Part shown: positions 21,599 to 56,697 of the stretch, one piece after another
Layout of the letters: the number at the start of each line of letters is the position of its first letter
How positions within the stretch are numbered: position 1 is the first letter of the stretch
Assembly: GCA_021234155.1 (NCBI GenBank)
Contig: JAJEKV010000065.1
Span: 4,829,594 to 4,893,593 of the forward strand
Direction: 5' to 3'
Length of the DNA stretch: 64,000 nucleotides
DNA from: Isoetes taiwanensis
Taxonomy: Eukaryota; Streptophyta; Lycopodiopsida; Isoetales; Isoetaceae
Position numbers and translations under genes: made by a program
The notes under the pieces: generated by a model
The model's database searches: none
What the model saw: only the letters and a program-made list of their open reading frames with translations
Told to the model about the DNA's origin: nothing

Positions 21599-21639
21599 AG
21601 AAATTTATCGCGGCGACCAAGGCCGCCGCGAAAATTTCT
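21599..21639 (+). repeat. GC-rich palindrome, member 1
   Basis: Left arm CGCGGCGACC (21609-21618), central AA, right arm GGCCGCCGCG (21621-21630). The outer bases AGAAA and TTTCT also pair. One arm carries an A where two other members have G. It is preceded by TACAAG. It lies ten bases before the LINE insertion point. Confidence 0.85.
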
Positions 21640-21648
21640 CTTCCCCAA

Positions 21649-23440
21649 TTGGTGAAAGATGGTTTCCCACCATCCTGGCAAGCCAGCCGAGTGGTGCCCC
21701 TGCATAAAACTGGTAACGAAGCTGACCCAAGCAACTACCGAATGATTATGATAAGCAATCTGTTCTCCAAGCTCGTTGCAACAATCCTAGAGCGTAAAAT
21801 CAAAGACATGGGCCGAGGATAATGACGCCAGAGCAAAGGGACAAAGTGTGTTTTAGGCCTACCAAGTCCACCATGGACCACCTCCTTACACTTCTGCAGC
21901 CATGGACTCGGTGAAGAAGACCAAAAGCCACTCTTTGCCATCTTTGTAGACCTGACTAAAGCCTTTGATACAGAAGGAGAGGGACTTGTGGAGCGTGATG
22001 GAGAAGTTAGGGGTGCCTTCGCAATATCGGCATGCAAAGGGCTAAATCTGTATGAAAAGGTATGGGTGCAACTATCATCACCTCTTTCCGATATATGCAA
22101 GGAAATGGTAGACAAAGAATATTGGTGTTAAACAGTATCGGTCTGTCAGCCCACTCTATTTGGAATATTCATAGATGAGCCGAGTCATGGATCATGGATA
22201 GCGGGTGTAACGGAACACAACTTCATGGATTCATGGTGGCCCTACTCCTATAATGCTAGATGACATCGTGTTGCTCTCTAGAAATGCACTAGATGCTCAA
22301 AAACACCTAGATGTGCTAGCCTCTTTCTCGTGACCAAATGCAAATGACAAAGAAACCTAGGAAAACAAAGATCTTGGTATTTGGCACCGCTCGGCCAGTT
22401 TCGGTTTCACTTTTAAAAAACGAAGGTAGAAGTCACCACACAAAGATATAAATACTTGGGTCTAATTGTGGACCAAAACTACAAATGGAACAAGGCGGTT
22501 GAGCATAGAACGGATAGCGGGCTGAAAGCCCTTTTCTCAATGCAGAAGATGCAGAAGGTAGAAATTGTAGACTTTGGACTCAAGAAAATGCTATACAAAG
22601 TTCCGGTTTCAAGCAAAGATTTTTATATGGGTGTGAGATCCGGGGCCGGCTTATCTCTAGATATGTGGAAGCTTAGTAGAGAAAATCCAAAAGAAGTTCC
22701 TCATGACAGAGCTTCGGGGTTAAAAGCTGCATAACACCATATGAAATGATGCTCAATGAATCTGGCCTGTTGCCTCTTGAGGGCGAAGCATTATGCCAAA
22801 CATTGCACTTTCTTCTCAAGGTGAAATCAATGGATACAGATAGTTTTCCGCATTTGGCAATGAAAGAAAGTGAGAACAAGGGATGGCACGCTGACTTGAG
22901 GAAATGGCTTAGCAAATGGGGAATGAGCTTGGACAACATGCCGCTTGACAAGGACATGATAAGGGAGTGGGTGAAGATACATTTTCAGTATAAAGCATGG
23001 CGGGGTGTACCAAAATGGAATACTATCGCACCTCTATGAACCCCGAGCTGAGAGCAATGCCATACCTTCAGGAGGGGATATCCATGCACAAGAGGCACAC
23101 AATCTGTAGATTCCGACTCAGCTCACATCACCTGGGAGTGGAGATTGGGCGATGGGGTGACATACCTCGCGAGCAGCGCACATGCAAGGTATGCGGGTCC
23201 AATGAAATAGAGGATGAGGCACATTTTGTTCTCCACTGTCCGGCGTATCAAACTCTAAGGGACCGAATGGGGGGCAATCCAGCTTCCCTGCTTGAGTTCT
23301 TTTCACAACCAGGTAGCATCACCGGAGGTACCTAATTGAAGCAATGGAGTCGAGATCAGGTCTCAATCGAAAACTACAAGCAATTGTTGGAAGAGTTTAA
23401 AGAAGACGCTAGAGAGAGCAAAGTCGCCACTCAGCTGGGG
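21649..23440 (+). pseudogene. LINE reverse transcriptase with a C2HC-like tail (broken)
   Basis: Starts in the RT with PPSWQASRVVPLHKTGN and DPSNYRMIMISNLFSKLVAT, then loses frame repeatedly around 21815-22450 (IFVDLTKAFD is still legible). Later pieces are KYLGLIVDQNYKW (22456 region), LNESGLLPLEGEALCQTLHF (22746) and CKVCGSNEIEDEAHFVLHC (near 23180-23240). Many indels for an element that should be younger than a nearly identical duplication. Either it was copied from a dead master or some indels are sequencing errors. Confidence 0.8.
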
Positions 23441-23553
23441 GGTGCACTTTGACATGCATGTTTTTGTTAGACAATCCTTGTAACTGCAACATCTAATAGG
23501 CCTGATGGCCTCATAGATGGAAAATAAAAGCAATTTTCTCTCTTTTTTTTCTC
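21649..23553 (+). mobile_element. 5'-truncated LINE inserted only in copy 1
   Basis: Comparison with copy 2 (36793/36800) gives both ends to within a few bases. Copy 2 has six to seven bases (CTTACTT) in place of 1905. The insert opens directly in RT coding sequence (LVKDGFPPSWQASRVVPLHK) and ends in a pyrimidine-rich tail after TAATAGGCCTGATGGCCTCA. No target-site duplication is seen; a small target deletion would explain the extra bases in copy 2. It belongs to the same family as 5426-6966. Confidence 0.85.
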
Positions 23554-25580
23554 TCTAGAAAGGCGGATTTGTATATCTTTGGAATGGTATAGAAGATGGT
23601 CTTGAAATCCAGGACTTAATAGTGAAGAATTTGTGTGAGAACATTCCTATGTATTGACTTATGTATGCCGAATTTGTGTGCATATGAATTTGAGTAAGGA
23701 ACTTGAACTCGTGTTGTTGCCTCATGATTCATGCCCATAGGATCGTCGAGGGTTGCAGACATGGGTTTTGTTCGAGCATGGTCTCTCAAGCCATTGTAAT
23801 TGATGGGGATGTAGTCACATATTTGAGAGTAGACCAATGGTATACAAAGGAATATTTGTGGGTATATCCACGTGGTTGGTCACTATCCATATTTAATCTA
23901 TCATTTTTAGCCCCCTCAAATTTTATCCTAAAATAACGTTTCAATAATCAACAGAACCATAGACCAATTGAATATGGATAGCAAGAAAAATGCGACTTTG
24001 ATGAATGTTATGAAAAAAATGCAAACTTTGCCACTAGCATGGCAGGGTACACACCAAATTCCCAAAATAATTTAGTCATTCAAATTTGATACACCTTTTC
24101 CAATAGCACGGCAGAGTACATACCTAATTGCCGAAACAATTTACTCATTTATAAACATCTTTTTGGGCTAAGTAAGCAATGGTGTGAAAAACATATATGA
24201 AGAATGAATTCACAAAAAGCCTAATAGACAGAATGCTTAGAGCATTGGCCTGAGATACAAAACGAGTATAGTCAGAACGTCTAGGAGTGGTCTAAGGCAT
24301 AAAAAAAAAGTTGTCATATGCTATACCCACTTGGCGGAAAAGCTTCCTTGACCATTAAAACGTGGAGCGTGTCTTGAGGTATTTTCTTCCGGGTTTTGCC
24401 AAATGAGAAGAGAAATTAGGGCAAAATAAGTAGTTCCCTAAGCTTAAATTATGTGACAAAGTTTGTATCAAAAAAGGGGAAAAGCCGAGCTGAACGACAG
24501 AAGACGGCTTTGAATCTGATCCAAGACCAGACAATAGAAGTTTGAATCGGAGTTAGTCAACTCGAAGTAAAGGTTATGGAAATGGTTGATGAAAAACCAT
24601 TGAAAGACAAAAATATTTTAACACAACGAAATTATTAGACAACCTAAAATCGTTGAATGAAGGAAAAGCGACGGGCAGGGTCATGCAAAAAGCCAGACTT
24701 GGATGCCTTTTCCAGATTCTTTAGGGCTCCTGGGTTTCGGATTCAAAATCGAATCTCCTGGGAAAGAGCCGAAACTCTTCAAGTCATGGCGAGATCTCAT
24801 TCCTAGCCCGATTCTTGCGGTTTATCCGCTAAAACCGAACAATCCAGAGCATGGCAAAATGGCCCTATAGCAGGCCGAAATTGATAAATTTGCAAGCTCA
24901 TGAGCAACGAAAACAGACATGACATATTTAGCAAAATTTGGACTTATTCAAATCTAATAGATATGCTTCAAGGATGCCATGATAATATTATATATTTTTA
25001 ACTTTGTTGATTTTAAAAATTTGTTCAATTTATTTTTAAATCAAAAGTATAATGGAAATTATAAAATTGCTTTCTAAACTAAAATTCACTTTAATCTTTT
25101 AGAATTAAATTCTCATTTAAGATAAACCCTGTAGATTAAAATATGTTTATGTTTTAATAATAACTATTGAATAGTTTATTTTTGATGAAATAAAATATAT
25201 TGAAAATTTATCGATAATAAACTGAACCTAAACTTTCTTTAAAGTATTTTTTAAAGTATAAAAGTTTGTAAATTGTGAAAATTCTCATAATAGTTTTAAC
25301 TCAATCGCTTATCACACCATCAAATTTCATTTAGAAATTATCATTGCCTTCTTAAATCATTGGGAATTGAAATTTTATATCCTTGAAATGTCTAATTCTA
25401 AATAGATTCAAGCAAAAATTAGTTTCGAAACCAATTTTATTCTTTGATAACCATTATACTTTTAATTTAAAAATAAATTTATATAATTAAAATTTATAAA
25501 TATAATAACAATCAAGAAGAATTAAAAAATATATATATTCTTATAATGGCATCCTTGTGCTGTCTATCAAATCTGAATAA
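23554..25580. other. Non-coding AT-rich part of the duplicated unit
   Basis: No gene that I can support. 24950-25550 is extremely AT-rich. The region around 24360-24860 contains several of the clustered differences from copy 2. Confidence 0.45.
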
Positions 25581-25582
25581 GT

Positions 25583-26030
25583 CTAAATTTTGTTGAGTAT
25601 GTCATAGAGAGAATAGCTCCGGATTAGCTCTTTCTTACTGTTTTTTAGATGGACTAAAATAAATCGCCCATCCGATGATCCGGATTTGCCTTTGAGAGCT
25701 ACCATAGCCTGCAGAAGAATGCGGACCAGCCTACGTGCTTTCAAATCATTATCAAAAAAAAAGAGTATTTTTGGGAAAAAGCAGAGCATATCGCAAAGGT
25801 AAACAGGGATTTCAAAGTGTAAACAGGGGATTTTTGGGTCCAAACATGTTCAAGAGATAAGCGAAAGCAGGCCATCGATCTTTGCACATGCAGGCACATA
25901 TGGAGCATTCTGCGGCAGTCTGAAGCAAACCACATGAAAACATTGCCTTCAAAAAATTAAAATTCGAAGGAAGGAAAGCAGATAGAGGAGGAGCTCGGAT
26001 TAGCTCTTTAGACTTTCTTAGTCTCGCCAT
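25583..26030 (-). CDS. Possible exon cluster with a GKSGSSDGRF motif, copy 1
   Basis: The minus strand holds GKSGSSDGRFILVHLKNSKK (near 25.67 kb) followed by ELIRSYSLYDILNKI and a stop, and upstream a frame starting MARLRKSKELIRAPPL. The first motif resembles GKPDRSSDGRFIAAHLRNGK at 53.26 kb on the plus strand, with about 70 bases of DNA similarity. It could be a host exon shared by two loci or a small repeat. I do not recognise the protein. The equivalent in copy 2 differs around 39000-39060 by complex edits. Confidence 0.3.
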
Positions 26031-26718
26031 GGAGTTCCTTTCGCTCGCATACGCACCAAAAGTGGCTATGGCAATGGCACCTAAAACGCCGCCGCGAAAA
26101 CCGCCGCAAAAAATCGCAAATGTAAGAGGCCAAGTTGTCCGCCGCCTTACTAGCTACTAACGGATTGAATGCTTCTGATGATACGTGGCATCTATACAGT
26201 GGAAATGATTGCGGCGGAGAAAAAATAGAAGTGCAGAACAAAAAAAAAAAAAAAAAATGAAAGACTCGATTATTTATGTGTTGATAATCAATTATAGAAG
26301 AAATTAATCATGGCGGCCTCAACATTTATCTTTACTGACTGACTTAATGGTTTGAATTGTATTTATTTGTAACACTGCAAAAGACATACTCAAAGACACA
26401 AGATTATAACATACAGTTATTCCTTGTAATTTGGTGGCATTTTGGCCGCCACTTACATTGTAGAGCCCCTCCCCAAAAAAAAAAAAAGAATATCTAATGT
26501 TTTTTGTTTTTAACGTAAAATTGACTATGTCGAAGTGACATTTTTTTAAACAATTAGCATTTTCCTAAAGTATATTTTTAGAGAGAACTTTTGTTTTAAG
26601 AGAATATAACTTTTAGTCAAAAATAGAAGTGTAGTAACTGAAATTGTAAGATTTTCAAAAATTGAAGATAAAATCTTCATCGTATTCACATGCAAAATTT
26701 ACAGTATTTTTAAAAGAC

Positions 26719-26982
26719 TCAGTTACGTGCAAAAGTGTGAGGAGTGATGAGAGAAGGATCAAGCAACTCATCATGTTCGTTACTTGAGGAAATGCTTGAG
26801 TTATCTTCTTCGTCACTATCAACAGATGGTGAAACATTGCCACCAACACTCCCTTCTTCCTCTTCTTCCTCATAATGCAAGCTTTCTTGAGCAAGTTGAT
26901 CATCCTCATTATTGGATTTTAGTTTAGAATCATAACACAATATACGAACTTCCTTGAGCTTTAGCTCATCCCTACAACCCAC
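26719..26982 (-). CDS. Acidic low-complexity ORF, copy 1
   Basis: An 87-codon minus-strand frame has a lysine-rich start (RDELKLKEVR) and an acidic middle (HYEEEEEEGSVGG, SVDSDEEDNSSISSSNEHDE). The upstream minus-strand sequence keeps coding-like lysine-rich character (KSRKGKKKVKK). It could be an exon of a nuclear protein or of a retroelement gag region. No domain is recognised. It is essentially unchanged in copy 2. Confidence 0.3.
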   Translation of the reverse strand: MGCRDELKLKEVRILCYDSKLKSNNEDDQLAQESLHYEEEEEEGSVGGNVSPSVDSDEEDNSSISSSNEHDELLDPSLITPHTFARN

Positions 26983-26989
26983 TTTCTTG

Positions 26990-28354
26990 ACTTTTTTTTT
27001 TCCTTTCCTTGACTTCTCATTTCTAACTAATACCTTCCCTCAAAAGCATTTAATGCAAGTCTAGCAAGCTAGTGAATCTTGAGTTTAGTCACTAATTCTT
27101 CTTCTTTAATTGTGTCAATTACTTTTGCTATCAAAGAAGGTCATCTTTTTTATCTTCCTCAGTTGGAAGAGCAATCATCATACCTTTTGCATGTTACCTG
27201 AAAGCTCATTCTTGCGTGTTGGTCTGAGGTACATGACCTGATCATCTTCTGCCTCTACTAAAGGTGCTCTTGGAACATTGCTTGGACATGCCTTGTTCTG
27301 GGGTTGATGGAAGGTGTTACACCACTAAAAAAGTTCCTACAATTGCATTAGACCTAGGTTCTAAATAACAATCTTTTGTTCAAGAAAGAAACTTCTCCAT
27401 CACATTTGGTTTTCTTTTAAGAAGTACTTAAAGCCCAAGGAAATTCTATTTCAATGGCTTTTAAGGATTTCATTGGGATACTTTTCTTCTGCTTTGACGG
27501 TTTTGTATGTTTTAAAGGAAGTTGCTCAACGCGTTCTACCAATTTGGAAATGATTTGAGGAAGCACAACTTCTCCGGACTCTAGTCTAGTCACTTCTTCC
27601 CTTGTAAAAAACTTTCTCCATTCTTCAAGTAAAACTTGATGTGGTGTTGAAAAGTAAAATCATTCAACTTGTTCATAGCTTGTTCTCCAATAACACATCG
27701 AGAGAAAATATATTCTCTAAAGTCGTCAGTCTCCTTTAGACGCTCAACCACAAATACAGGAGTGTGAGAGTCTTCAATGATTCAAACTAAAGTTGGAAGA
27801 CAAAAAGCCTTCGAGAGTGTTGTATTTTTATTCTTCTTGGTAGTGTTGTCAAGTTGTAGATAGAGCATTGGTGGTAATTGCTCTTGTTCACACAACACCT
27901 TGTCAAAAATTGCAATTGTTTGGGTCACCATGCAAGTTAGAATATGTTAAAAAGTCTTTGTACTTTAGACTCTCTTTGAAGACCATTGCTCCGACAAGAT
28001 GGACCTTAACAAAGCATTCCTCTGGCACATCTTTAGAAATCCTATATTATAAAATCGTGGCATCTATCCCTCCACCCCATCAATGGCCCACATTGTGCCA
28101 TGTGGCATAGATCTAGACCATTAAAATTGTCCAAGAAATGAAAGGATTTGCTTAATGTACCCTTTCTTTTGGTGTCTGCATCGGGTCGATGGCTCAAATT
28201 ATCCTACTGATCCTTTTGCTCTCATAGACGGCATAGATTGTGCCACATGAAAACATCAACTGACATTAAAAAGTCACGAGAGCTCTAAAATTACGATTTG
28301 AAGAAATGAAAAGCGACGAGAGCCCTAAAAGGTCTTTTGTCCTGTCAGCTCTTC
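26990..28354. other. Coding-like but unassigned stretch
   Basis: On the minus strand, short frames between stops look like eroded coding sequence (for example LPTEEDKKDDLL near 27150), possibly an old pseudogene continuing from the acidic ORF. I cannot assemble it or name it. Confidence 0.2.
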
Positions 28355-28798
28355 AATATGTAGCAAAATAACAAGGGGTTTCAGGGGGATTTGATATGGA
28401 TGTAAAAATAACAATTCCTGAAACCATAGACAATATATCCTTAACACAATTGAATAGCTTGTTATAAAAAAAAAAAAAAATAGATTCAAGATAAAACTTA
28501 ATCACACTAGCTCACTGGGTACATTGATTAAAATAATCTTATTAGGACATTGAGTTATTTTGGTAGAGGTTCGAACCCCCGTATTTCATATTCTAAAATC
28601 CTAGGCAAAGTCGTATAGAGGTTCGATATTCCCTCAAAACCTTAAGCAAAATCGCATTTCATATTTCAAAATCATAGGCATCTCCAATCATAAATTATTA
28701 TAAGCGAAACGAGAGGTGCCCAGAGGCCCCAACATACGATTTGGATCGTAGGATCGATGAAACCGACGATTATGCTAGTCCAGGGTGCACCTCGTTCT
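28355..28798 (+). repeat. SINE-like repeat with Pol III boxes, copy 1
   Basis: Contains an A-box-like word TAGCTCACTGGG (28508-28519) and a B box GGTTCGAACCCCC (28568-28580) about 60 bases apart, as in tRNA-derived SINEs. About 150 bases lie upstream of the A box and 220 downstream. Related copies are at 2386-2829 and in the second duplicate. The long 5' part before the A box is unusual for a SINE and may be a separate repeat that travels with it. Confidence 0.55.
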
Positions 28799-29707
28799 GT
28801 GGACGATCACACGGCTTGGGGTGGTAAAGAAAATAGAGGGCAGAAGTTCGCAATAGTTCGCAGTCTGGTATGAAATAGCAAAGAAGCTTTTTAGTCTTTT
28901 CCTATAAAGATAATATTAAACTGGCTCTGCTTTGCGGGGCATTGAAAGTGTACATTGCTGTAAGAACTAGGTAAGTTGCTACTCCGTCATCAATTGTCTG
29001 GGAACGTTTTGGAAAATGCGAGGATGTTTTCTTGCCAAATTCTTAATCAACATTCATTGGGTATTCTTGTATCATCATAGCAAGCAAGACAAGTAGCCAT
29101 GAAGCTTGATTTTAGAGTTCATCTTTTCCTGTATTCTTATAGCAAGACAAGTAGTCATATAGATTGGTTTTAAAATTCAGTTGCTTCTCATGAGATTCAT
29201 CTTTGCTTATTTCAATTATGCAAACTGCGTTCTCGCGTTTGCAACTTTCTGAGTAGCAGTCTACATGTAAATTAGACACTGAACATCTATGCCTATTGTT
29301 TGCTACAACCAAAACTTGCGCACTACAATATTAAGTTAGGTAGCACAGAAGAAATGGCATAAAACAAAGTTTATAGCTTCTCTATGTTTTTGCAGCTGCC
29401 ATTTGAAAACTTTCTGTTTGATGTTAGATATATAGACTCTTTGGCTTTGGTTAGTGATCACAAGGCACCCAAAATTGAATCAGTATGACTCTTTAACCAT
29501 AGTTTGTTGGTGAAAGCCATACATTTAAACTGATATCAGTTTGTGGGCCAAAAAGTTTACAAACCATGTGTGGTTACGCAGTATAGTTCGTTACTATGAT
29601 CTAATAGTGTGAGAAACAAACATTATTTTGTACCGCAGTAAGTGTGTACGCTTATGCAATATGGTTCATTAATACAACTTGATAGTATGATAAACGAATA
29701 TAGCTTT

Positions 29708-29831
29708 CTAACATGCTAAGTCTAGCCAATCCTTATTACTACTTTAAGTATATGATGTATAATATCGATTCCTAACATGCTAAGTCTAGTTGATCCCTAT
29801 TCCTACCTTAAGTATACGATGCATAATATTG
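29708..29831 (+). repeat. 63-bp two-unit tandem repeat
   Basis: CTAACATGCTAAGTCTAG starts both units (about 29708 and 29771), and TTAAGTATA.GATG.ATAATAT ends both. Repeated at 42966-43089 in copy 2. Confidence 0.75.
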
Positions 29832-30413
29832 CTTAATATGACATGTTTTGTGACGCAATATTTTACCACATCTATCTTCTTTGCTTTACAATGGTGGTGA
29901 CATTGTACAATAGTGTTTCATAGGCATGGTTTGTACATATGGTATATTATGGTATACAATGTAGTCGTTTATAGGTATTGTTTGTACATATGACATACTA
30001 TAGTGGTAAGCATGTGAATATGTATGGTTTAAGACACTTAATTTATTCTATGGGACCAAGGAGTCGAACCTTGAGAAAGCCAAATCCCATAAATAACATT
30101 GAACTGGTGTCCATGAATTCATTTTGTCTATACTATGCAGAAGCAATCCAATCCATTTAATGCAGAACCAATCTAATCCCTTTAATGGCATTGAACTGGC
30201 TTATTTGAATTTATTCCAGTGATTCAATCATTCTACATGCGTTAACTTGATTCCCTACCCAGCTAATTCATCCCTTCATTTATATTTAAGCAATTTTGAT
30301 TTCTAAAAAAGCAGTAATAGATGCCTAAAGTACAAAATCCATCCTAAAACTCAATCCATGGAAAGGCATGTCATAGCCACTCTCATCAAACGAGCACAAG
30401 TCATTCATCATTT

Positions 30414-31095
30414 TGCCCCGAATTTGTTCCACCTGGATTCACCACCAGCAAATGAAAGATGAATGAAGAAGCTTTCCTTTCCTTAAGCGTTTCCTCATGT
30501 GTTTCACACTCCCAGAAACGCACAGTTAGTATATACGCAGAGTCTTAGGTATCTACAGAACTCTATCTGCATTTGAAACACAATACTACCCTAGTTTTTA
30601 TAAAACGAGAAAATAGGAAAGTGTATATTATGAATAAGATCTTTAGATAAATCTAAAAGACAGATCTGTCTAGAACAGTTCTGTCACATAGATAGAAAGG
30701 ACGTAAAACAAGTTAATAATGCCCCACAGATTTGTTCCACCTGGATCCATCATCTTCAAGGAGTTGAATGAAGAAGCTTTTTCAATACACCATGTATGAC
30801 AGATAGTAACGCACAAAAAATTCCTTAAGCATTTCAAGGGTAGTTCCTGTGCTCAAACTAGAGGAATGAAGGAAAAGGATGACACACGCTTTCACTCTCT
30901 CGGAGAGGCATAGTTAGAACATAAGTAGAGTCTTACTACAAAACTTTATCTGCAAAGCCCAATCAATACAACAATACCTTGGTTTATAATATGAGAAAAT
31001 AAGGAACTGCAAAGGAATAAGATCTTTAGATAAATAAAAAACACCGATATGTCTAGAACAGTTATGCCACATAGATAGAAGGATGTAGAAGAAAT
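30414..31095 (+). repeat. ~310/370-bp two-unit diverged tandem repeat
   Basis: The units start at TGCCCCGAATTTGTTCCACC (30414) and TGCCCCACAGATTTGTTCCA (30720). They share GAATGAAGAAGCTTT, CCTTAAGC.TTTC, GAATAAGATCTTTAGATAAA, GTCTAGAACAGTT and CACATAGATAGAA. No coding capacity. The same pair lies at about 43671-44356. Confidence 0.7.
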
Positions 31096-33360
31096 TGATA
31101 GCTTTTTCTCGGAAACAAGCAAGCGAATGATATAAAGAAGTTCAATAGTATAAGACTCAAAACTGATAAGCTTGCATCATTACCTGCTCCTCCAAGGAAC
31201 ACCACGATTCTGCTTATTAGTTGCTACTATCAAAGCTTCCAGACTCTCATGACTTCAAAACAGCTGCTATTGCTGCCCCGCATTTTGGATCGATGCCATA
31301 GCCAGAAGAAAGAGGAAAAGCAGGAGGGTGTCTGGAAAAGAGAGGGTTTCGAATTCAGAGGCAAAAGTACCGCTGCCATTAGCAGCAGCGCTACAACCCG
31401 AGATGGGCGCCGCCATCGCCAGGCACGAAGCCATCCGTCCAGCGACAAAAATCGTTTCATTCCAGCGCCGAAAAACAACATGAAAATGAAAACCCTAAAT
31501 TGAATACAAAAAAAGCCCTAAAATGATAAGAAGAAAATGTTATGGAGCATCTTCATTTTAATTCACACAAACATTGTGCCATATGGGTTTAATGGGATCA
31601 CTGGATCCTAGCACATTGTTATTTGAAATATTTTGGATCTAGGTTGAGGAATATACACCTCAAACCTACGTACAAAAAGGCACTTCCTTTATACTTGTTA
31701 AAAAGAGCAATGCATGGCCCCAAATAAACTTGCCTTAGTGTAGCATCTTAGAAATGAAAGAAAAACAACTGTGGAAATGATAGCTTTCCACTTGCCTCAA
31801 AAGAAAAATTGTGTGGCTCCTGTAATCTGAACCATATATTGCTCATGGCGGTGGCAGTATCTTCTGGCGATTATGGCGGTGGCGGTGGCGGTGCGGCTAT
31901 GGTGCAGCTATGCTCTGCTTTCTTCTTTTGTTAGGTTATCACAGTTGAATATTACGTTTCTAATCTAAGGGCAAGAACAAAGCAAAGGCAGGGTCGATTT
32001 CTGTTGTTAGCATTGCAGGATTGAACGTTTTAAGGCTTTGTTTGTTTAAGGCCATAATGCATATCGTTGAGTTGAGCTCTGCACAAGGTCTTCATGGGCT
32101 TCTTCCAGCAAGCAAAGGAAAACTGGAAATTTTAACTACGCAGAACATATTATCTGCACCAGAGCAAATGCATAGGAGATTTCAACAATTTTGTAAAGCA
32201 ACTCCATGCAAATTCATCGACTTCTCAAAACTGGTCATAAGATTCTATTAAACTGATTTTTAGGATCTCGGAAAGAAGGCGCACTCATTTGTAAAAGGTA
32301 ACCACTAAAAAATGAAAAAAGAAAAATACAAACTCCCTTTTCTCTCTCCACCATAGCCCAAAGCATAGTAAAGGGACAGTTTTAGAACCTTATGAGTGCC
32401 TTAATACTTGAGAAATTGTGTTAACCCATTGGCATGTTCATGGCAATATCTAAATATCGAGCTATCATGCCAAGTTATAACTATGGTGAAAATAAATCGC
32501 GAACATTTTTTTTAGGGGACTTGGAAACCACATCCCATGTTCTAAGGTCTAATAGAGATTATTTTAAACCTATAGATTCGACTCTTATAGTGATGTAATG
32601 GCCATTACAACCATTAATAAGCTAAATATTCTACAAGCTAAATATTCTACTCTGTAAATTCTGAGCCATGTATATAGTCCTAGCTTGGAGAATTAGAAGC
32701 CCTTGCAATTTAGTACATCAATCCAATATTTGCCAAAACTATGATTGGTGGTACAATCATTTAAGAGCATTCCCACAATGATACTTGTTATCAATTTCTA
32801 CATACTAGATTATCATTCCCTCAATAGCCAAAAAATGTTGCGATAACTATGCGCTACAACAATCCAAGATACGAAAATCTCATGCTCAACTGTAAAAGGG
32901 TGAAGGTAATAAGCTAAACCGAAGTAAAATTGAGTGATGATTTCACAATAAGCTCTAAAAACACGAACCTTGTTCTAGGCAATACAATGTTAGACAATAA
33001 CCTCAGAAATATAGGATCTTATTTCAATGTCAATCTTTAACCATAACAAGTTCAACTTAAACCTTGTATATGAACTTCACAATGAATTTCAACGCAAAAG
33101 CTCATTACTTATAGCAAGCACACAAATGAAAGCACTTAAAGCACTTAAATAATTTTAAACCTTTGCAAATACTATGCTTCCTTTCGAGAGCTCAGGCATC
33201 CATTTCTTATGGATCCGACTTCAAACAAATGATCTATCTGTTGTACAATCCCAGTATACTTCTTATAGTTTGCATAATCGACACCGACTCATACAGAATC
33301 AGTGCCAAGATCGCCTCTGACTTCGTCATTCTCATATTGACAATGCAAGCTGTTTAAACA

Positions 33361-35899: not shown

Positions 35900-36111
35900 T
35901 GATCAGCATCATCCGAATATGTATGCCAACAATGCTTTTATGCATGCCGCTTTTGCTATAGGTGGGAAGGTCTCAACACGTCCATATGTCCGTTTTTTGT
36001 TTGTAATGCATGTTTGGTTTCAATTATGCTCTTTTTTACTATTACTACCGAGGTAGAATTTTCAAGATGGTAGATAGACGGTGCAATTTGAGCCAGAACA
36101 TTATGTTTCAT

Positions 36112-36195
36112 ATAAATTTCATGGGGAAATGCACTAACCAGACTTGGCATCATAAATTTCATGGGGAAATGCACTAGCTAACCAGACTTGGCATC
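36112..36195 (+). repeat. ~42-bp tandem duplication, copy 2
   Basis: Counterpart of 20967-21050 with no difference that I can see. Confidence 0.85.
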
Positions 36196-36743
36196 ACTCT
36201 GGCTATTGCACTTGTGATGCCTCGTGGCAACGCCACCTCAATGAGTAAAGAGTCTCCCCATAAAATTTTTGTACTACATGAATATATGAGTTGCACCTCG
36301 AAGGTCTTGCTATGGCGCCTATCAGAAAATTGTGCATCTCAAAGGCTTTTTTAGCCAAGTCGAGCTTAATCTTGCAATGATTTGAAGGTGTGATTCTTGA
36401 GTTTTAGTTTGAATTTTTGTCAATTGTTTGTTTAGAACTATGTAAAGTTGTACAAAACTACATGGAAACTTGATATGCACCACATATCATATATCGTGCA
36501 CAAATATGCACCACATATCACATATCGCGCACGAGGGTGTAAGAGTCACGAAACTTTGAACTTATAACATCATATCTAGGTGAAGAAAGTGTTCCATAAG
36601 TGTTAAGTTAGGATGTTCACCAATTGGATGGTTAATTAATGCATTGTTAGTTTATATTGTTGAATGCTTATTTTGTATTGCAATAACTCAGATAAAAGAG
36701 AAAGAGCTAAGGTACTTGGAAGGGGACTAAGCATTATAATACA

Positions 36744-36784
36744 AGAAATTTATCGCGGCGACCAAGGCCGCCGCGAAAATTTCT
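36744..36784 (+). repeat. GC-rich palindrome, member 2
   Basis: Counterpart of 21599-21639 in copy 2, with the same arm variant (CGCGGCGACC / GGCCGCCGCG, arms 36754-36763 and 36766-36775). Here the following sequence is the LINE-free target (CCCCAACTTACTTCTAG). Confidence 0.85.
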
Positions 36785-39276: not shown

Positions 39277-39970
39277 GGAGTTCCTTTCTGCTTCTGCACC
39301 AAAAGTGGCTATGGCAATGGCACCTAAGCTGCTTCTGCAGAAACCGCTTCTGCAAAAATCGCAACAGAAGAGGCCAAGTTGTCCGCCGCCTTACTAGCTA
39401 CTAACGGATTGAATGCTTCTGATGATACGTGGCATCTATACAAAGGGAAATGATTGTATGAGAAAAAAAAATAGAAGTGCAGAACAAAAAAAAAAAAAAG
39501 AAAAATGAAAGACTCGATTATTTATGTGTTGATAATCAATTATAGAAGAAATTAATCATGGCGGCCTCAACATTTATCTTTACTGACTGACTTAATGGTT
39601 TGAATTGTATTTATTTGTAACACTGCAAAAGACATACTCAAAGACACAAGATTATAACATACAGTTATTCCTTGTAATTTGGTGGCATTTTGGCCGCCAC
39701 TTACATTGTAGAGCCCCAAAAAAAAAAAAAAAAAAAACAAAGAATATCTAATGTTTTTTTGCGAACAGAAAATTGACTATGTCGAAGTGACATTTTTTTA
39801 AACAATTAGCATTTTCCTAAAGTATATTTTTAGAGAGAACTTTTGTTTTAAGAGAATATAACTTTTAGCCAAAAATAGAAGTGTAGTAACTGAAATTGTA
39901 AGATTTTCAAAAATTGAAGATAAAATCTTCATCGTATTCACATGCAAAATTTACAGTATTTTTAAAAGAC

Positions 39971-40234
39971 TCAGTTACGTGCAAAAGTGTGAGGAGTGAT
40001 GAGAGAAGGATCAAGCAACTCATCATGTTCGTTACTTGAGGAAATGCTTGAGTTATCTTCTTCGTCACTATCAACAGATGGTGAAACATTGCCACCAACA
40101 CTCCCTTCTTCCTCTTCTTCCTCATAATGCAAGCTTTCTTGAGCAAGTTGATCATCCTCATTATTGGATTTTAGTTTAGAATCATAACACAATATACGAA
40201 CTTCCTTGAGCTTTAGCTCATCCCTACAACCCAC
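39971..40234 (-). CDS. Acidic low-complexity ORF, copy 2
   Basis: Identical at protein level to the 87-codon frame at 26719-26982, including the EEEEEE run and the SVDSDEEDNSS segment. No domain recognised. Confidence 0.3.
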   Translation of the reverse strand: MGCRDELKLKEVRILCYDSKLKSNNEDDQLAQESLHYEEEEEEGSVGGNVSPSVDSDEEDNSSISSSNEHDELLDPSLITPHTFARN

Positions 40235-41606
40235 TTTCTTGACTTTTTTTTTTCCTTTCCTTGACTTCTCATTTCTAACTAATACCTTCCCTCAAAAGCA
40301 TTTAATGCAAGTCTAGCAAGCTAGTGAATCTTGAGTTTAGTCACTAATTCTTCTTCTTTAATTGTGTCAATTACTTTTGCTATCAAAGAAGGTCATCTTT
40401 TTTATCTTCCTCAGTTGGAAGAGCAATCATCATACCTTTTGCATGTTACCTGAAAGCTCATTCTTGCGTGTTGGTCTGAGGTACATGACCTGATCATCTT
40501 CTGCCTCTACTAAAGGTGCTACTGTAACATTGCTTGGACATGCCTTGTTCTGGGGTTGATGGAAGGTGTTACACCACTAAAAAAGTTCCTACAATTGCAT
40601 TAGACCTAGGTTCTAAATAACAATCTTTTGTTCAAGAAAGAAACTTCTCCATCACATTTGGTTTTCTTTTAAGAAGTACTTAAAGCCCAAGGAAATTCTA
40701 TTTCAATGGCTTTTAAGGATTTCATTGGGATACTTTTCTTCTGCTTTGACGGTTTTGTATGTTTTAAAGGAAGTTGCTCTGAACGTTCTACCAATTTGGA
40801 ACAGATTTGAGGAAGCACAACTTCTCTGGCAGACTCCAGTCTAGTCACTTCTTCCCTTGTAAAAAACTTTCTCCATTCTTCAAGTAAAACTTGATGTGGT
40901 GTTGAAAAGTAAAATCATTCAACTTGTTCATAGCTTGTTCTCCAATAACACATCGAGAGAAAATATATTCTCTAAAGTCAGCAGTCTCCTTTAGACGCTC
41001 AACCACAAATACAGGAGTGTGAGAGTCTTCAATGATTCAAACTAAAGTTGGAAGACAAAAAGCCTTCGAGAGTGTTGTATTTTTATTCTTCTTGGTAGTG
41101 TTGTCAAGTTGTAGATAGAGCATTGGTGGTAATTGCTCTTGTTCACACAACACCTTGTCAAAAATTGCAATTGTTTGGGTCACCATGCAAGTTAGAATAT
41201 GTTAAAAAGTCTTTGTACTTTAGACTCTCTTTGAAGACCATTGCTCCGACAAGATGGACCTTAACAAAGCATTCCTCTGGCACATCTTTAGAAATCCTAT
41301 ATTATAAAATCGTGGCATCTATCCCTCCACCCCATCAATGGCCCACATTGTGCCATGTGGCATAGATCTAGACCATTAAAATTGTCCAAGAAATGAAAGG
41401 ATTTGCTTAATGTACCCTTTCTTTTGGTGTCTGCGGGTCGATGGCTCAAATTATCCTACTGATCCTTTTGCTCTCATAGACGGCATAGATTGTGCCACAT
41501 GAAAACATCAACTGACATTAAAAAGTCACGAGAGCTCTAAAATTACGATTTGAAGAAATGAAAAGCGACGAGAGCCCTAAAAGGTCTTTTGTCCTGTCAG
41601 CTCTTC

Positions 41607-42050
41607 AATATGTAGCAAAATAACAAGGGGTTTCAGGGGGATTTGATATGGATGTAAAAATAACAATTCCTGAAACCATAGACAATATATCCTTAACACA
41701 ATTGAATAGCTTGTTATAAAAAAAAAAAAATATAGATTCAAGATAAAACTTAATCACACTAGCTCACTGGGTACATTGATTAAAATAATCTTATTAGGAC
41801 ATTGAGTTATTTTGGTAGAGGTTCGAACCCCCGTATTTCATATTCTAAAATCCTAGGCAAAGTCGTATAGAGGTTCGATATTCCCTCAAAACCTTAAGCA
41901 AAATCGCATTTCATATTTCAAAATCATAGGCATCTCCAATCATAAATTATTATAAGCGAAACGAGAGGTGCCCAGAGGCCCCAACATACGATTTGGATCG
42001 TAGGATCGATGAAACCGACGATTATGCTAGTCCAGGGTGCACCTCGTTCT
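41607..42050 (+). repeat. SINE-like repeat with Pol III boxes, copy 2
   Basis: A-box-like TAGCTCACTGGG (41760-41771) and B box GGTTCGAACCCCC (41820-41832). Nearly identical to 28355-28798 apart from an A-tract length. Confidence 0.55.
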
Positions 42051-42965
42051 GTGGACGATCACACGGCTTGGGGTGGTAAAGAAAATAGAGGGCAGAAGTT
42101 CGCAATAGTTCGCAGTCTGGTATGAAATAGCAAAGAAGCTTTTTAGTCTTTTCCTATAAAGATAATATTAAACCGGCTCGCTTTTGCGGGCATTGAAAGT
42201 GTACATTGTCAGTAAGAACTAGGTAAGTTGCTACTCCGTCATCAATTGTCTGGGAACGTTTTGGAAAATGCGAGGATGTTTTCTTGCCAAATTCTTAATC
42301 AACATTCATTGGGTATTCTTGTATCATCATAGCAAGCAAGACAAGTAGCCATGAAGCTTGATTTTAGAGTTCATCTTTTCCTGTATTCTTATAGCAAGAC
42401 AAGTAGTCATATAGATTGGTTTTAAAATTCGGTTTGCTTCTCATGAGATTCATCTTTGCTTATTTCAATTATGCAAACTGCGTTCGCGTTTTGCAACTTT
42501 CTCGAGTAGCTTGATCTACATGTAAATTAGACACCGAACATCTATGCCTATTGTTTGCTACAACCAAAACTTGCATTTCTACAATATTAAGTTAGGTAGC
42601 ACGTAAGAAATGGCATAAAACAAAGTTTATAGCTTCTCTATGTTTTTTTTAAAATGCCATTTGAAAACTTTCTGTTTGATGTTAGATATATAGACTCTTT
42701 GGCTTTGGTTAGTGATCACAAGGCACCCAAAATTGAATCAGTATGACTCTTTAACCATAGTTTGTTGGTGAAAGCCATACATTTAAACTGATATCAGTTT
42801 GTGGGCCAAAAAGTTTACAAACCATGTGTGGTTACGCAGTATAGTTCGTTACTATGATCTAATAGTGTGAGAAACAAACATTATTTTGTACCGCAGTAAG
42901 TGTGTACGCTTATGCAATATGGTTCATTAATACAACTTGATAGTATGATAAACGAATATAGCTTT

Positions 42966-43089
42966 CTAACATGCTAAGTCTAGCCAATCCTTATTACTAC
43001 TTTAAGTATATGATGTATAATATCGATTCCTAACATGCTAAGTCTAGTTGATCCCTATTCCTACCTTAAGTATACGATGCATAATATTG
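42966..43089 (+). repeat. 63-bp two-unit tandem repeat, copy 2
   Basis: Counterpart of 29708-29831. Confidence 0.75.
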
Positions 43090-43670
43090 CTTAATATGAC
43101 ATGTTTTGTGACGCAATATTTTACCACATCTATCTTCTTTGCTTTACAATGGTGGTGACATTGTACAATAGTGTTTCATAGGCATGGTTTGTACATATGG
43201 TATATTATGGTATACAATGTAGTCGTTTATAGGTATTGTTTGTACATATGACATACTATAGTGGTAAGCATGTGAATATGTATGGTTTAAGACACTTAAT
43301 TTATTCTATGGGACCAAGGAGTCGAACCTTGAGAAAGCCAAATCCCATAAATAACATTGAACTGGTGTCCATGAATTCATTTTGTCTATACTATGCAGAA
43401 GCAATCCAATCCATTTAATGCAGAACCAATCTAATCCCTTTAATGGCATTGAACTGGCTTATTTGAATTTATTCCAGTGATTCAATCATTCTACATGCGT
43501 TAACTTGATTCCCTACCCAGCTAATTCATCCCTTCATTTATATTTAAGCAATTTTGATTTCTAAAAAAGCAGTAATAGATGCCTAAAGTACAAAATCCAT
43601 CCTAAAACTCAATCCATGGAAAGGCATGTCATAGCCACTCTCATCAAACGAGCACAAGTCATTCATCATT

Positions 43671-44356
43671 TTGCCCCGAATTTGTTCCACCTGGATTCAC
43701 CACCAGCAAATGAAAGATGAATGAAGAAGCTTTCCTTTCCTTAAGCGTTTCCTCATGTGTTTCACACTCCCAGAAACGCACAGTTAGTATATACGCTAGA
43801 GTCTTAGGTATCTACAGAACTCTATCTGCATTTGAAACACAATACTACCCTAGTTTTTATAAAACGAGAAAATAGGAAAGTGTATATTATGAATAAGATC
43901 TTTAGATAAATCTAAAAGACAGATCTGTCTAGAACAGTTCTGTCACATAGATAGAAAGGACGTAAAACAAGTTAATAATGCCCCACAGATTTGTTCCACC
44001 TGGATCCATCATCTTCAAGGAGTTGAATGAAGAAGCTTTTTCAATACACCATGTATGATAGATAGTAACGCACAAAAAATTCCTTAAGCATTTCAAGGGT
44101 AGTTCCTGTGCTCAAACTAGAGGAATGAAGGAAAAGGATGACACACGCTTTCACTCTCTCGGAGAGGCATAGTTAGAACATAAGTAGAGTCTTACTACAA
44201 AACTTTATCTGCAAAGCCCAATCAATACAACAATACCTTGGTTTATAATATGAGAAAATAAGGAACTGCAAAGGAATAAGATCTTTAGATAAATAAAAAA
44301 CACCGATATGTCTAGAACAGTTATGCCACATAGATAGAAGGATGTAGAAGAAATTG
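43671..44356 (+). repeat. ~310/370-bp two-unit tandem repeat, copy 2
   Basis: Counterpart of 30414-31095, with only isolated differences. Confidence 0.7.
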
Positions 44357-46249
44357 ATAGCTTTTTCTCGGAAACAAGCAAGCAAATGATATAAAGAAGT
44401 TCAATAGTATAAGACTCAAAACTGATAAGCTTGCATCATTACCTGCTCCTCCAAGGAACACCACGATTCTGCTTATTAGTTGCTACTATCAAAGCTTCCA
44501 GACTCTCATGACTTCAAAACAAATTTCTATTGCTGCCCCATTTTGGATCGATGCCATAGCCGTAAGAAAGAGGAAAAGCGAGGAGGGTGTCCGAAAAGAG
44601 AGGGTTTCAATTCAGAGGCAAAAGTACCGCGCCATTAGCGGCCAGCCGCTACAACCCGAGATGGGCCACCATCGCCGTGCACGAAAGCCATCCGGCCAAA
44701 TGACAAAAATCGTTTCATTCCAAATAAAAAAACAACATGAAAATGAAAACCCTAAATTGAATACAAAAAAAGCCCTAAAATGATAAGAAGAAAATGTTAT
44801 GGAGCATCTTCATTTTAATTCACACAAACATTGTGCCATATGGGTTTAATGGGATCACTGGATCCTAGCACATTGTTATTTGAAATATTTTGGATCTAGG
44901 TTGAGGAATATACACCTCAAACCTACGTACAAAAAGGCACTTCCTTTATACTTGTTAAAAAAAGAGCAATGCATGGCCCCAAATAAACTTGCCTTAGTGT
45001 AGCATCTTAGAAATGAAAGAAAAACAACTGTGGAAATGATAGCTTTCCACTTGCCTCAAAAGAAAAATTGTGTGGCTCCTGTAATCTGAACCATATATTG
45101 CTCATGGCGGTGGCAGTATCTTCTGGCGATTATGGCGGTGGCGGTGGCGGTGCGGCTATGGTGCGGCTATGCTCGCTTTCTTTTTTGTTAGGTTATCACA
45201 GCTTGAATATTACGTTTCTAATCTAAGGGCAAGAACAAAGCAAAGGCGTGGTCGATTTACATTGTTAGCATTGCGAGGATTGAACGTTTTAAGGCTTTGT
45301 TTGTTTAAGGCCATAATGCATATCGTTGAGTTGAGCTCGCACACAAGGTCTTCATGGGCTTCTTCCGCCAGCAAGCAAAGGAAAACCGGAAATTTTAACT
45401 ACACGCAGAACATATTATCTCGCACTGAGCAAATGCATAGGAGATTTCAACAATTTTGTAAAGCAACTCCATGCAAATTCATCGACTTCTCAAAACCGGT
45501 CATAAGATTCTATTAAACTGATTTTTAGGATCTCGGAAAGAAGGCGACTCATTTGTAAAAGGTAACCACTAAAAATGAAAAAGAAAAATACAAACTCCCT
45601 TTTCTCTCTCCACCATAGCCCAAAGCATAGTAAAGGGACAGTTTTAGAACCTTATGAGTGCCTTAATACTTGAGAAATTGTGTTAACCCATTGGCATGTT
45701 CATGGCAATATCTAAATATCGAGCTATCATGCCAAGTTATAACTATGGTGAAAATAAATCGCGAACATTTTTTTTAGGGGACTTGGAAACCACATCCCAT
45801 GTTCTAAGGTCTAATAGAGATTATTTTAAACCTATAGATTCGACTCTTATAGTGATGTAATGGCCATTACAACCATTAATAAGCTAAATATTCTACAAGC
45901 TAAATATTCTACTCTGTAAATTCTGAGCCATGTATATAGTCCTAGCTTGGAGAATTAGAAGCCCTTGCAATTTAGTACATCAATCCAATATTTGCCAAAA
46001 CTATGATTGGTGGTACAATCATTTAAGAGCATTCCCACAATGATACTTGTTATCAATTTCTACATACTAGATTATCATTCCCTCAATAGCCAAAAAATGT
46101 TGCGATAACTATGCGCTACAACAATCCAAGATACGAAAATCTCATGCTCAACTGTAAAAGGGTGAAGGTAATAAGCTAAACCGAAGTAAAATTGAGTGAT
46201 GATTTCACAATAAGCTCTAAAAACACGAACCTTGTTCTAGGCAATACAA

Positions 46250-48022: not shown

Positions 48023-48067
48023 TACAAGAAATTTATCGCGGCGGCCAAGGCCGCCGCGAACATTTCT
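48023..48067 (+). repeat. GC-rich palindrome, member 3
   Basis: Perfect arms CGCGGCGGCC (48037-48046) and GGCCGCCGCG (48049-48058) around AA, preceded by TACAAGAAATTTAT and followed by AACATTTCT. The outer AGAAA/TTTCT pairs extend the foldback to about 40 bases. Confidence 0.85.
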
Positions 48068-48299
48068 TTTTTTCAAAACTGTGCAGTTGGACCCCAATTA
48101 ACGTCCAACATTCTCTTCTGCAATGGCCAAGTGATTCTAGATTGATGTGAAGCAACTTCGTAAGATCTTACATTCTAACTCTAATTTAGAAATTACAAAG
48201 TACAATATTTAGCTTAGCCTTTTAAAAAGTTGGTCAATACTTTTTGTTATTGAAGGTTCATGTGTTCACAGACATCAAACATCAAGTAGAATTATCAAT

Positions 48300-50040: not shown

Positions 50041-50091
50041 AGTTATCCAAGTGTTGTCAAATTCAGAGTTATCCAAGTGTTGTCAAATTTA
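50041..50091 (+). repeat. 26-bp tandem duplication
   Basis: AGTTATCCAAGTGTTGTCAA followed by ATT occurs twice in succession. Confidence 0.85.
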
Positions 50092-53127: not shown

Positions 53128-54480
53128 ATGCTCTTCCTGAGGCTTTGCTTTCTCCAGTTCGTTTGCTCCATTCCGGCGAGCTTTCTGGCCCAGGTAGTAA
53201 GAAATTTTGTGTTTCTGTGCTGCATCTCTCTGGCTATGATTCTTTCTGGCATGGGCAAACCCGATCGATCTTCTGATGGGCGATTTATTGCAGCCCATCT
53301 AAGAAACGGTAAGAAAAGGCAAATCCGGAGTTGTTCTTTCTGTTTTCAGATAGCTCAAGAGGACAGCCACAGGTGTGACTTCGCCCTAAGTATTCTGTAC
53401 GTGATTTACAAGGAAGGGGCAAGGAACATTTATTTTTTGAACGATGTTTTCATGCTTGCCTTTGTTTTCCAATTTCGTATTGAGCAGATGAACGGAGAAG
53501 TAGCAGATGATTGCAGGAGCGGACGAGTAGGAAGGAGCAGTCATAGTCAACACCCGAAAAGTTTGGGCATGGTTTTCATTCGGCAGGGCATTTCTGCAGA
53601 TTCAATTCAATGCTTAGCTTCTCATGACAGAGGCAAAAATGTGGACGGTAAGTTTGCAGCATGGTTCCTTGCTTTTTCCTTCTGCCCACCCTTCTTTCTT
53701 TTCCTTATCTTTTCTCTCAGGTGCATAGACTGGAGCAATCATGGCTGTAGAGCTTGATCTATCCAACCGGGGATATAAAAAACTTTGCTTTGCTGGAGCC
53801 CAGTATAGCAGTTGAAGGGCTTGTGCATTCCCTAGAGAATGACGCTGATAAACACGTGGAATACATTGTACAAGGGTAACGGTCTATCGACCAGGAAACC
53901 CAAGCACTTGAGGTGAGACTCTAAATGCAATTTTGATATCAACTGAAAATGGAAGGTTTACAGGTCAGGAACCCCAAGTGGCTGCAGCTGAAATAGAACA
54001 TGAAGTTTTTCTGTCAACTGATAAAGTGCAGGAGCTGAACTTTAACAGTGCACCTAAACCAGGTAACAAAATTTCTGAAGTTAAATCACCTGCTAGCAAG
54101 CGGAGGTCTTTTGCAAAAAAGACTTCAACTTTTCCTCCAAAGACCTCCTGCAAAAAAGACTTCAACTTTTCCTCCAAAGAATCTGAAGTCCGATGCCCCT
54201 TTGCCTCCAAGAGTTCCTTCCAAATTCTTGAGAAAGTCTCCAATTCCTTCGTTAACACTTCCAAGGCTACGTTCTTTTGAGATTGTTGAAATTAAGGAAG
54301 GCGAAGTAGAAAATTAGACGCCAAACGTATCCAAGAAGGTGCAGCGTTCAACTTTTACTTTTATCAGAAAATCACCTATTCCAGTTGCTCCAAGAAAAGC
54401 TTTTAGAGGTCAGAAGAGCAAACTGTTATCTAATTTTCCTTGAGCTGTCTTTGGTCTTCTAGTCTTATTGAGGCTGTACA
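53128..54480 (+). CDS. Possible upstream exons of the dynein light chain gene (damaged or mis-modelled)
   Basis: Plus-strand exon-like segments: GKPDRSSDGRFIAAHLRNG ending at a donor (AACG|GTAAGA, near 53308); MNGEVADDCRSGRVGRSSHS to HDRGKNVDG after an acceptor TTGAGCAG and ending at GGACG|GTAAGT (near 53648); and a basic, proline-rich part (53960-54410: SPASKRRSFAKKTSTFPPK, PLPPRVPSKFLRKSPIPSLT, then SFEIVEIKEGEVEN). The last part is broken by a 32-base repeat with period 37 (54112/54149) that shifts the frame, and by a TAG at 54315. A disordered basic N-terminus before a Tctex domain is plausible, but linkage to the downstream exons is inferred. Confidence 0.35.
54112..54180 (+). repeat. 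32-bp repeat, period 37, causing a frameshift
   Basis: TGCAAAAAAGACTTCAACTT followed by TTCCTCCAAAGA occurs at 54112 and again at 54149. Because 37 is not a multiple of three, the frame reading KKTSTFPPK continues sensibly (NLKSDAPLPPRV) only if one copy is removed. Confidence 0.8.
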
Positions 54481-54772
54481 GAGGGCGTTAGTATGTCGTT
54501 TGATATATTTTCTTTATATTTGAAGAAGTTGTAATTGTCTGAAGCTCTAAGATATTATTTCTTATTTGAGATATTATTTGTCATGCTTTAGGCTTTGACA
54601 AGATATAGTGCTAGGCAATTCGATTCTTGCATGGGACATGGTTTGTGTATTTGCCTCTCGTGCTCTTTTTTATTTTGTTCTGATATTTAGAAATTATTGA
54701 TTAACAGAAGCTATTCCTTTGTATGTCTTAGATGGAATTCTCACGTGAAGTCGTGTTTGCATTGGACTGCAG

Positions 54773-55684
54773 CCAAGATTTATTACGGAACAAATTACGC
54801 TTATAATAAAAGCCTCACTTGACGATGCTCTTGGTAGTCATCAGTTTAGACATGACATGGTAAATTTTAAAGAATCTTATATGGAGCTGCTTACAAAGTT
54901 ATATCTTTATATATAGTGCATGGTACTGGAACTTGTGCAGGTTGGACATTGGACTGCAAAAATTTGTGAAGTTTGCATGGCGCGCTTAGCTGCACTAAAC
55001 AAGCCCTTTAAATATGTTGGTAGGTTGCATCCTCTAGTCCCTGCTGTAATATTACCCACATTTAAGCTTTGTGGAAATGAGGAACATATAATAAATTTCA
55101 TAGCCGAAGTTATGAGGCAGTGCTGGAGTGCAAATTTGGAGGTCCATGTGGTGGGTGCTATCGAATTTTTGACGTGTTTATTTATGCAACTTAGATAACT
55201 GAAATGCTATATTTTAATATAATGGTGGTTTAAAGTGGTTCAACTCCACAGTATCTTGCAATTAAGGGTAGCAACAGATTTTCCATTTTTCCGTCTTTAT
55301 TTTATTTACATGTAAATGATGACTGAATCTGCTAGTTTTCAGTGACATGCATAATGATGCAGAAGAATGGTGCTGGAATGGTCACTGCAAACTCTTGCTA
55401 TTGGGATAGTTCAAGTGATGGTATGTACCTTGCCCATTTGCAATCATGATCTGTTACAATCAACAAAAGATATTGAATCTTGAATACTGGATGCCACTTT
55501 GCAGTAAAAGCAGGCCCAATATGCATTCCAAATATCTGTATAAAGCTATTTGAAGGCTGATACTATGCTTAACAAATTATTTGAAAGCTAATGGAGATGC
55601 TATTTTTTCATAGGTAGTCGAACTATTCGTTGGGAGAATAAGACCATGTATTGCATTGTGACAGTATTTGGCTTCTCTATTTAA
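54773..55684 (+). CDS. Tctex-type dynein light chain, C-terminal domain in four exons
   Basis: Tctex1/DYNLT-family light chains form dimers at the base of dynein motors. Exon 1 (54773-54859) reads [20 protein letters not shown] and GSHQFRHDM. Exon 2 (54941-55019) reads [19 protein letters not shown] and NKPFKYV. Exon 3 (55343-55420) reads [20 protein letters not shown] and DSSSDG. Exon 4 (55614-55684) reads [20 protein letters not shown], then SI and TAA. MQKNGAG, the C.WD.S.DG segment and [13 protein letters not shown] are family hallmarks. All boundaries have GT..AG and phases 0, 1, 1 join without a break, giving about 104 residues, the usual domain size. The true start codon lies upstream and is not settled. 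Confidence 0.9.
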
Positions 55685-56652
55685 TTAAACCATACAACTC
55701 GTGTTGGCATGATTCTTGCACATTTATCACAAACGGCAAGTGCTAGAAGATCACTGGAAGGATAATATTCTTACATGTCGAAGATGTGGCCTCGATGGCA
55801 ATAACCTGATGGGTTGAGGAAGTTGGTGACATCAAAATTAGAATGTAATGGCATCACCCTTGTTTTGTGTACTTAATATGCATTTTTTATGCCCAGGCAA
55901 TACTGGCAAAATAGCAAAACATTTTCATGCTTGCAAAATAGCAAAACATTTTCATGTCAGGTGAATCGCCAATAAGCACTTTGTAACTCCAATTTCGTTG
56001 CAATGAACTGCTATTAGACATTTTCTATCGACTTGGAGAAGTTTGTCTCCAAGTCAGTTTTAATCAATGCATTGCATGCCACATTGTGCCCATTTTCAAT
56101 GATCTAGGAATCAAATGCCACTTTTATTTTTTATTTGTTTGCCCATTCAACGTTTTTAATGTACCAAGTTGTTATTGTCAAGAAAATTGTCTATGCCCCT
56201 ACGTAGTGTCTCGCTTTTCGATGCTACTCCATTACAATGGACGGCCAATGTGGGCTTGCAATTTGTGCAAGATTAAGTGGACGTAGTACATGAGATGCAA
56301 GTTGGGATGCAATTTGGCCATTTGACCATACGAGCATTATCACCATAGATGAAGACCTTAACACAATGGTGAAGACCTTAGTACAACATTATTTTTGTAT
56401 AGGTTAAATATTGACATGTGCAGTCTAGCTTCTCGAAATGCTCATGTTCCATGTCTATCAAGCAAAAATCTAGTTTAAAATACTAGCAGTGTATGCTATA
56501 TTATTTGATTGATTTGAGCAGACATTGCATTGTCAAATGTTAGACATTATGATTTGATACAGAAAGATTTTTATATAGTGATGCCCCAGTTGGAGATAGT
56601 TTTCACCCCAATTCCAAATTGATACAAACTCCCTCATAGTGCATTTAGGAAA
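55685..56652. other. 3' flank of the dynein light chain gene
   Basis: No second gene seen. It includes the 27-bp duplication at 55906 and a short repeated GAAGACCTTA word near 56350-56380. Confidence 0.4.
55906..55957 (+). repeat. 27-bp tandem duplication
   Basis: GCAAAATAGCAAAACATTTT followed by CATG, twice (55906 and 55933). Confidence 0.85.
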
Positions 56653-56697
56653 GAGAAACGTTCGCGGCGGCCTTGGCCGCCGCGATAAGTTTCTTGT
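56653..56697 (-). repeat. GC-rich palindrome, member 4 (reverse orientation)
   Basis: Arms CGCGGCGGCC (56663-56672) and GGCCGCCGCG (56675-56684) around TT. The right side reads AAGTTTCTTGTAGAG, the reverse complement of the TACAAGAAA side of the other members. It lies 1 kb beyond the dynein light chain stop codon. Confidence 0.85.

Follow-up and report, generated by a model that had tools for sequence, protein, structure and literature searches.

A repeated GC-rich palindromic unit in Isoetes taiwanensis DNA, possibly the end or core of a small non-autonomous element

The palindromic unit and its four sites

We analysed a stretch of 64,000 nucleotides from Isoetes taiwanensis (contig JAJEKV010000065.1, positions 4,829,594 to 4,893,593 of the forward strand), called here the window. 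It carries a GC-rich hairpin unit of about 40 to 55 letters. Four sites were found, at 21595 (+), 36740 (+), 48023 (+) and 56698 (-), so both orientations are represented. The preliminary description of this DNA gave 48023 correctly, and the first two sites start 4 bases to the left of the 21599 and 36744 that it named. It also called the setting very AT-rich. This is too strong, since the 2-kb bins range from 31 to 46% GC. The copies are the following.

21595..21646, + strand: copy A, with the TACAAGAAA anchor, arms with one mismatch (CGCGGCGACC) and a pyrimidine-rich tail
36740..36791, + strand: copy B, the duplicate of A, not counted as independent
48023..48074, + strand: copy C, with perfect 10-bp arms around AA
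56647..56698, - strand: copy D, with perfect 10-bp arms around AA, facing copy C

The common core of the four sites is TACAAGAAAYTTATCGCGGCGRCCAAGGCCGCCGCGAA, of 38 bp with two variable columns. A variable pyrimidine-rich tail follows it. The unit starts with the TACAAGAAA anchor and continues with YTTAT, the arms CGCGGCGGCC and GGCCGCCGCG around AA, AANRTTTCT and the tail. The arms had been described as common to all members. They are perfect at two of the four sites (48023 and 56698), while the left arm at 21595 and 36740 reads CGCGGCGACC, with one mismatch. A repeat length of about 55 bp is certain.

The independent copies match each other with BLASTN E-values from 1.8e-11 to 8.5e-15 over 54-58 bp. 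A palindrome scan of the window gave 66 matches. Those with arms of at least 80% GC (12) all fall in the four sites, and none appeared in 10 Markov-1 shuffled windows. These E-values and counts indicate that the repeat is not due to chance. A profile of the unit, built from three of the copies that the search with it then found, also matches the opposite strand at every site, over 42-43 model positions. Thus, the two halves of the unit are imperfect inverted repeats. The anchor by itself is unspecific, with three more exact occurrences of TACAAGAAA in the window that lack the palindrome.

Folding of the single-strand DNA of copies A, C and D (D on both strands) gave -16.7 to -19.1 kcal/mol, with z values of -5.4 to -5.9. 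In each of these four folds, 0 of 200 shuffles was as stable as the native one. The inverted repeat structure of foldback elements, or of those like miniature inverted-repeat transposable elements (MITEs), is therefore present here, in the arms and in the single-strand folds.

A diverged fifth member was considered at 26296 (duplicated at 39544). Its profile E-value was 0.024. Its alignment score of 28 lies just above the 22-26 of six shuffled windows, and another place scored 27, so it was not accepted. Rfam gave no match within the window at gathering scores. Three patterns of the unit had no match in a viral contig set. The genome contig set gave one pattern match, in a metagenome-assembled genome of Desulfobulbaceae; it ends at CGCGGC with no palindrome behind, and we took it as chance. 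In the open PubMed Central (PMC) literature, the string CACTACAAGAAA occurs. A query there with CGCGGCGGCC and palindrome returned only papers with unrelated titles, and five strings of the unit had no match.

Independent copies and the segmental duplication

The four sites are three independent copies. A segmental duplication accounts for A and B, which are the same copy present twice: 20772-21648 and 35917-36793 agree at 100% along 877 bp, and 23554-32987 aligns with 36800-46249. The preliminary description had counted four members; all four do have TACAAGAAA, the GC-rich arms and the AA centre, but one of them is a duplicate.

20772..32987, + strand: first copy of the segmental duplication, with unit A and, at about 21649-23553, a LINE fragment
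35917..46249, + strand: second copy of the segmental duplication, holding unit B, without the LINE

Beyond the identical part of 877 bp, the next 9.4 kb align with 165 substitutions in 9403 columns (1.75%). The divergence is patchy: blocks of 500 columns as far as 32584 hold between 0 and 37 substitutions, and a final block with 40 extends past the end of the duplication. Either the duplication is real, with gene conversion, or it is an assembly artefact.

The fragment of a long interspersed nuclear element (LINE) at 21649-23553 interrupts only the first copy of the duplication, about ten bases past the unit. The TTTCT of copy A ends at 21639 and the duplicates diverge after 21648, which agrees with the distance of about ten bases reported before. 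Against the empty site in the other duplicate, the LINE fragment presents no target duplication. About 7 bp (CTTACTT) were apparently lost there.

Conservation of CpG sites

The window has a CpG observed/expected ratio of 0.54. Between the duplicates, 49 of the 204 CpG sites changed, compared with 1.75% substitutions overall. The arms hold six CpGs per copy. Counted from the sequences, all of them are intact in the three independent copies (18/18). Recent spread, constraint or a lack of methylation would each explain this. The comparison of CpG decay in a unit with that between flanking duplicates is a simple and reusable argument for recency or constraint.

Boundaries and flanks

Among the three independent copies, two columns vary within columns 1-38 and seven in the next 16 (Fisher p 0.0016, with the cut at column 38 chosen after the alignment was seen). 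Other signals were likewise defined after looking: each copy has ATTAT 2-3 bases to its left (3 of 20000 random triplets did as well), and the tail has eight all-pyrimidine columns (p 0.0017).

For the three independent copies, the tests of the flanks were mostly null, though some were not. Local flank alignments gave p<0.05 in one of 24 tests, the right flanks of B and D, with a 22-column block just past the unit (p 0.027). With stricter scoring, two of 12 fell below 0.05 (B-D right over 100 bases, 0.030; B-D left over 300 bases, 0.048). Long flank alignments under lenient gap costs were uninformative.

Target duplications were scanned with left offsets of 0 to -3 and right boundaries of +38 to +74. 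None was consistent across the three copies. The best single ones are 3 bp for A/B, none for C and 4 bp for D. They are ordinary, as at least 3 bp occurred at 1772 of 2000 random places.

Another similarity lies upstream of units B and D.

38851..38935, - strand: island that aligns with 53254-53341 in 88 columns at 80.7% identity, with unit B about 2.1 kb downstream
53254..53341, + strand: island with unit D about 3.3 kb downstream, oriented to it as unit B is to the island at 38851-38935

A further match of this island is present at 25606-25690 (-). The 88-column island is partly coding-like (SSDGRFI..HL.N.KK) and has an internal GTAAG donor-like site.

Comparison with transposon ends

CACTA termini start with 5'-CACTA and have a 3-bp target-site duplication (PMC4938662). 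Here, the corresponding starts are TAATA, TAATA, ATGTA and CTCTA, so the three bases ahead of TACAAGAAA are TAA, TAA, ATG and CTC and not CAC. The three copies have no 3-bp target duplication in common, nor one of even 2 bp. As for paired terminal inverted repeats, C and D face each other; for neither A nor B was an inverted partner found on the right within the duplicated segment.

The 65 frames of at least 45 amino acids between C and D gave a Tctex-1 match at E 0.019. In a Pfam scan of 63 of the 88 window frames of at least 85 amino acids, no families other than reverse transcriptase and PPR reached E 0.01. We considered C and D as the two ends of one 8.7-kb element, but this has no support, with unmatched outer triplets and no transposase match.

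Origin of the unit

Tentatively, we incline to a family of small non-autonomous DNA transposons, of which the unit would be the conserved end or the foldback core. In such a family, the one-sided TACAAGAAA anchor beside a GC-rich hairpin with a 2-base centre would be recognised as DNA by a transposase. This enzyme would be provided from elsewhere in the genome, and copies would have dispersed through its recognition of anchor and hairpin. The three near-identical independent copies, their two orientations, the hairpin potential, the stronger conservation of anchor and hairpin than of the tail and the intact CpGs are directly supported. We infer that the unit is mobile, of class II origin and recognised by a transposase. 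Of the origins put forward in the preliminary description (CACTA ends, solo foldbacks or protein-binding sites), the observations agree best with a short foldback or element end that was dispersed.

Alternatively, though we consider it improbable, a true CACTA (En/Spm) transposon might have left the unit as a solo or degenerate end whose first three bases were lost or vary. The likeness to plant CACTA ends consists of TACAAGAAA, identical to bases 4-12 of the radish terminus CACTACAAGAAAA (PMC7210773). It is weak, because it rests on a 9-mer found three times elsewhere in the window. CACTA subterminal repeats, as in a soybean element, can also form stem-loops with GC-rich portions, like the hairpin here (PMC2613891). 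The facing position of C and D, 8.7 kb apart with their anchors outward, would suit two ends of one element. However, CAC is missing at all four sites, directly before nine bases that are the same in each. ATG outside C and GAG outside D mismatch as a 3-bp duplication, a transposase match is lacking in the 65 frames between them, and no second end is established. The look of the unit is CACTA-like, but its filing as CACTA fails where tested. Still less do we credit a rolling-circle element of Helitron type whose 3' end the unit would form, with TACAAGAAA as the more plausible terminal side. Helitrons are not known to make target duplications, and one side of the unit is far better kept than the other. 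They often have a 16-20 bp palindrome near the 3' end, of a size similar to the one here (PMC2575219). Helitrons are also described with a 5' TC and insertion between A and T (PMC2575219). Nevertheless, their 3' end is CTRR, often after the palindrome (PMC2575219), and CTRR is absent at our four sites, where the end is CTTGTA, or TTTCTYTT on the other side.

The main rival is an old duplication of the locus, unlikely in our judgement but ahead of the other alternatives. According to it, A/B and D, perhaps also C, come from one duplicated locus in which the palindrome is the best-preserved island. A/B is itself the product of a duplication. The 88-column island lies upstream of A/B and of D, at about 2.1 and 3.3 kb and in the same relative orientation. 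Moreover, B and D have the 22-column block just past the unit in common, and the anchored extensions of their right flanks given below are mostly at p<0.05 (down to 0/400 at 150 bases). On the other hand, the neighbourhood of copy C (48023-52900) has no such island, and no other collinear match between B and D is convincingly long. With stricter scoring, the B-D right flanks go from p 0.030 at 100 bases to 0.31 at 300. The CpG-rich arms would also be expected to decay fastest and not slowest. A conserved protein-binding or boundary element, immobile and under selection, would account for the intact CpGs and the strong conservation of anchor and arms. The arms contain GCCGCC, the core of the plant GCC box. 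Nevertheless, binding sites are usually shorter than the 38 near-identical bases, which include AT-rich parts. Binding alone is insufficient, because so many near-identical bases need a common source. Besides, no gene position common to all three copies was found, without systematic gene annotation. We hold this origin to be quite unlikely, even if the unit may be bound by a transposase or a host factor.

Several results weigh against the origin from a small non-autonomous element. The independent copies in the window number only three. Two of the three have the second island nearby, and for these two a duplication of the locus is suggested. Whatever right boundary was tried, all three copies never had a target duplication of at least 2 bp together, and the 65 frames between C and D gave no match to a transposase family at E up to 0.5. 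Anchored flank extensions had p<0.05 in 3 of 6 tests of one set (B-D right, 0.012) and in 6 of 18 of another. For B-D right, the second set gave 0.039, 0.007 and 0/400 at 40, 70 and 150 bases, and the third gave 0.012, 0.008, 0.016 and 0.056 at 100, 150, 250 and 400 bases; the nulls of all three sets came from the same neighbourhoods, and those of the third contained self-like scores that were very high, with maxima of 416 and 716. Hence a longer element or locus, now decayed, may lie behind the unit, which would be its best-kept portion, most of all in B and D. Finally, copies with decayed CpGs are harder to recognise, so the CpG argument is biased.

Likeness to other palindromic elements

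Short palindromic elements similar to the unit have been described in other systems. The GC42 clusters of yeast mitochondria are GC-rich palindromes of 42 nt with a hairpin constraint, but they are mitochondrial, unlike the nuclear-looking DNA studied here (PMC4478555). Bacterial repetitive extragenic palindromic (REP) elements have a short imperfect palindrome, a conserved motif on one side and a stem with mismatches. However, they are bacterial, mostly have GTAG ahead and are moved by TnpA-REP, and the motif of our unit is another (PMC8266576). Volvox carteri has short palindromic repeats of about 50 nt, a similar size, in organelle and nuclear DNA; their authors suggested that the nuclear copies are inert and organelle-derived (PMC2670323).

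By analogy, and as a rather speculative thought, the unit could belong to stand-alone palindromic micro-elements of plant nuclear genomes. Each would measure about 40-55 bp and combine an anchor on one side with a GC-rich hairpin under constraint, and a hairpin-recognising enzyme would spread them singly. In the nucleus, they would correspond to the REPs of bacteria and the GC clusters of mitochondria. If the unit moves by itself, it would count as very small for a mobile unit in a plant nuclear genome, and hairpin recognition could be tested cleanly on it. It is an ordinary repeat if it is just the end of an element or belongs to a duplicated locus.

Neighbourhood of the copies

The exons of a Tctex-1 dynein light chain lie at 54773-55681. 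Their three joined peptides match the family at E 3.6e-34, so the dynein gene is real. Together with the PPR repeats and the general look of the sequence, this gene would suit a land plant that has motile sperm. As its exons end at 55681 and copy D spans 56647-56698, the position of one site 1 kb past the dynein gene is confirmed. Upstream of the exons, at 54115-54180, a repeated stretch shifts the reading frame.

Other repeats are present between and around the copies. A minisatellite of AATAAATGCAAAG-type units occupies 48956-49351, and three ATAAATGC motifs stand also at 52091-52132. Degenerate repeats, 81-90% identical, cover 46780-47642. The open frame at 33791-34264 resembles, as we assume, the end of a Copia polyprotein; no Copia family passed E 0.01. 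Near the start of the window, a direct repeat of 183 bp (1705-1887 and 2081-2263) is 98.9% identical.
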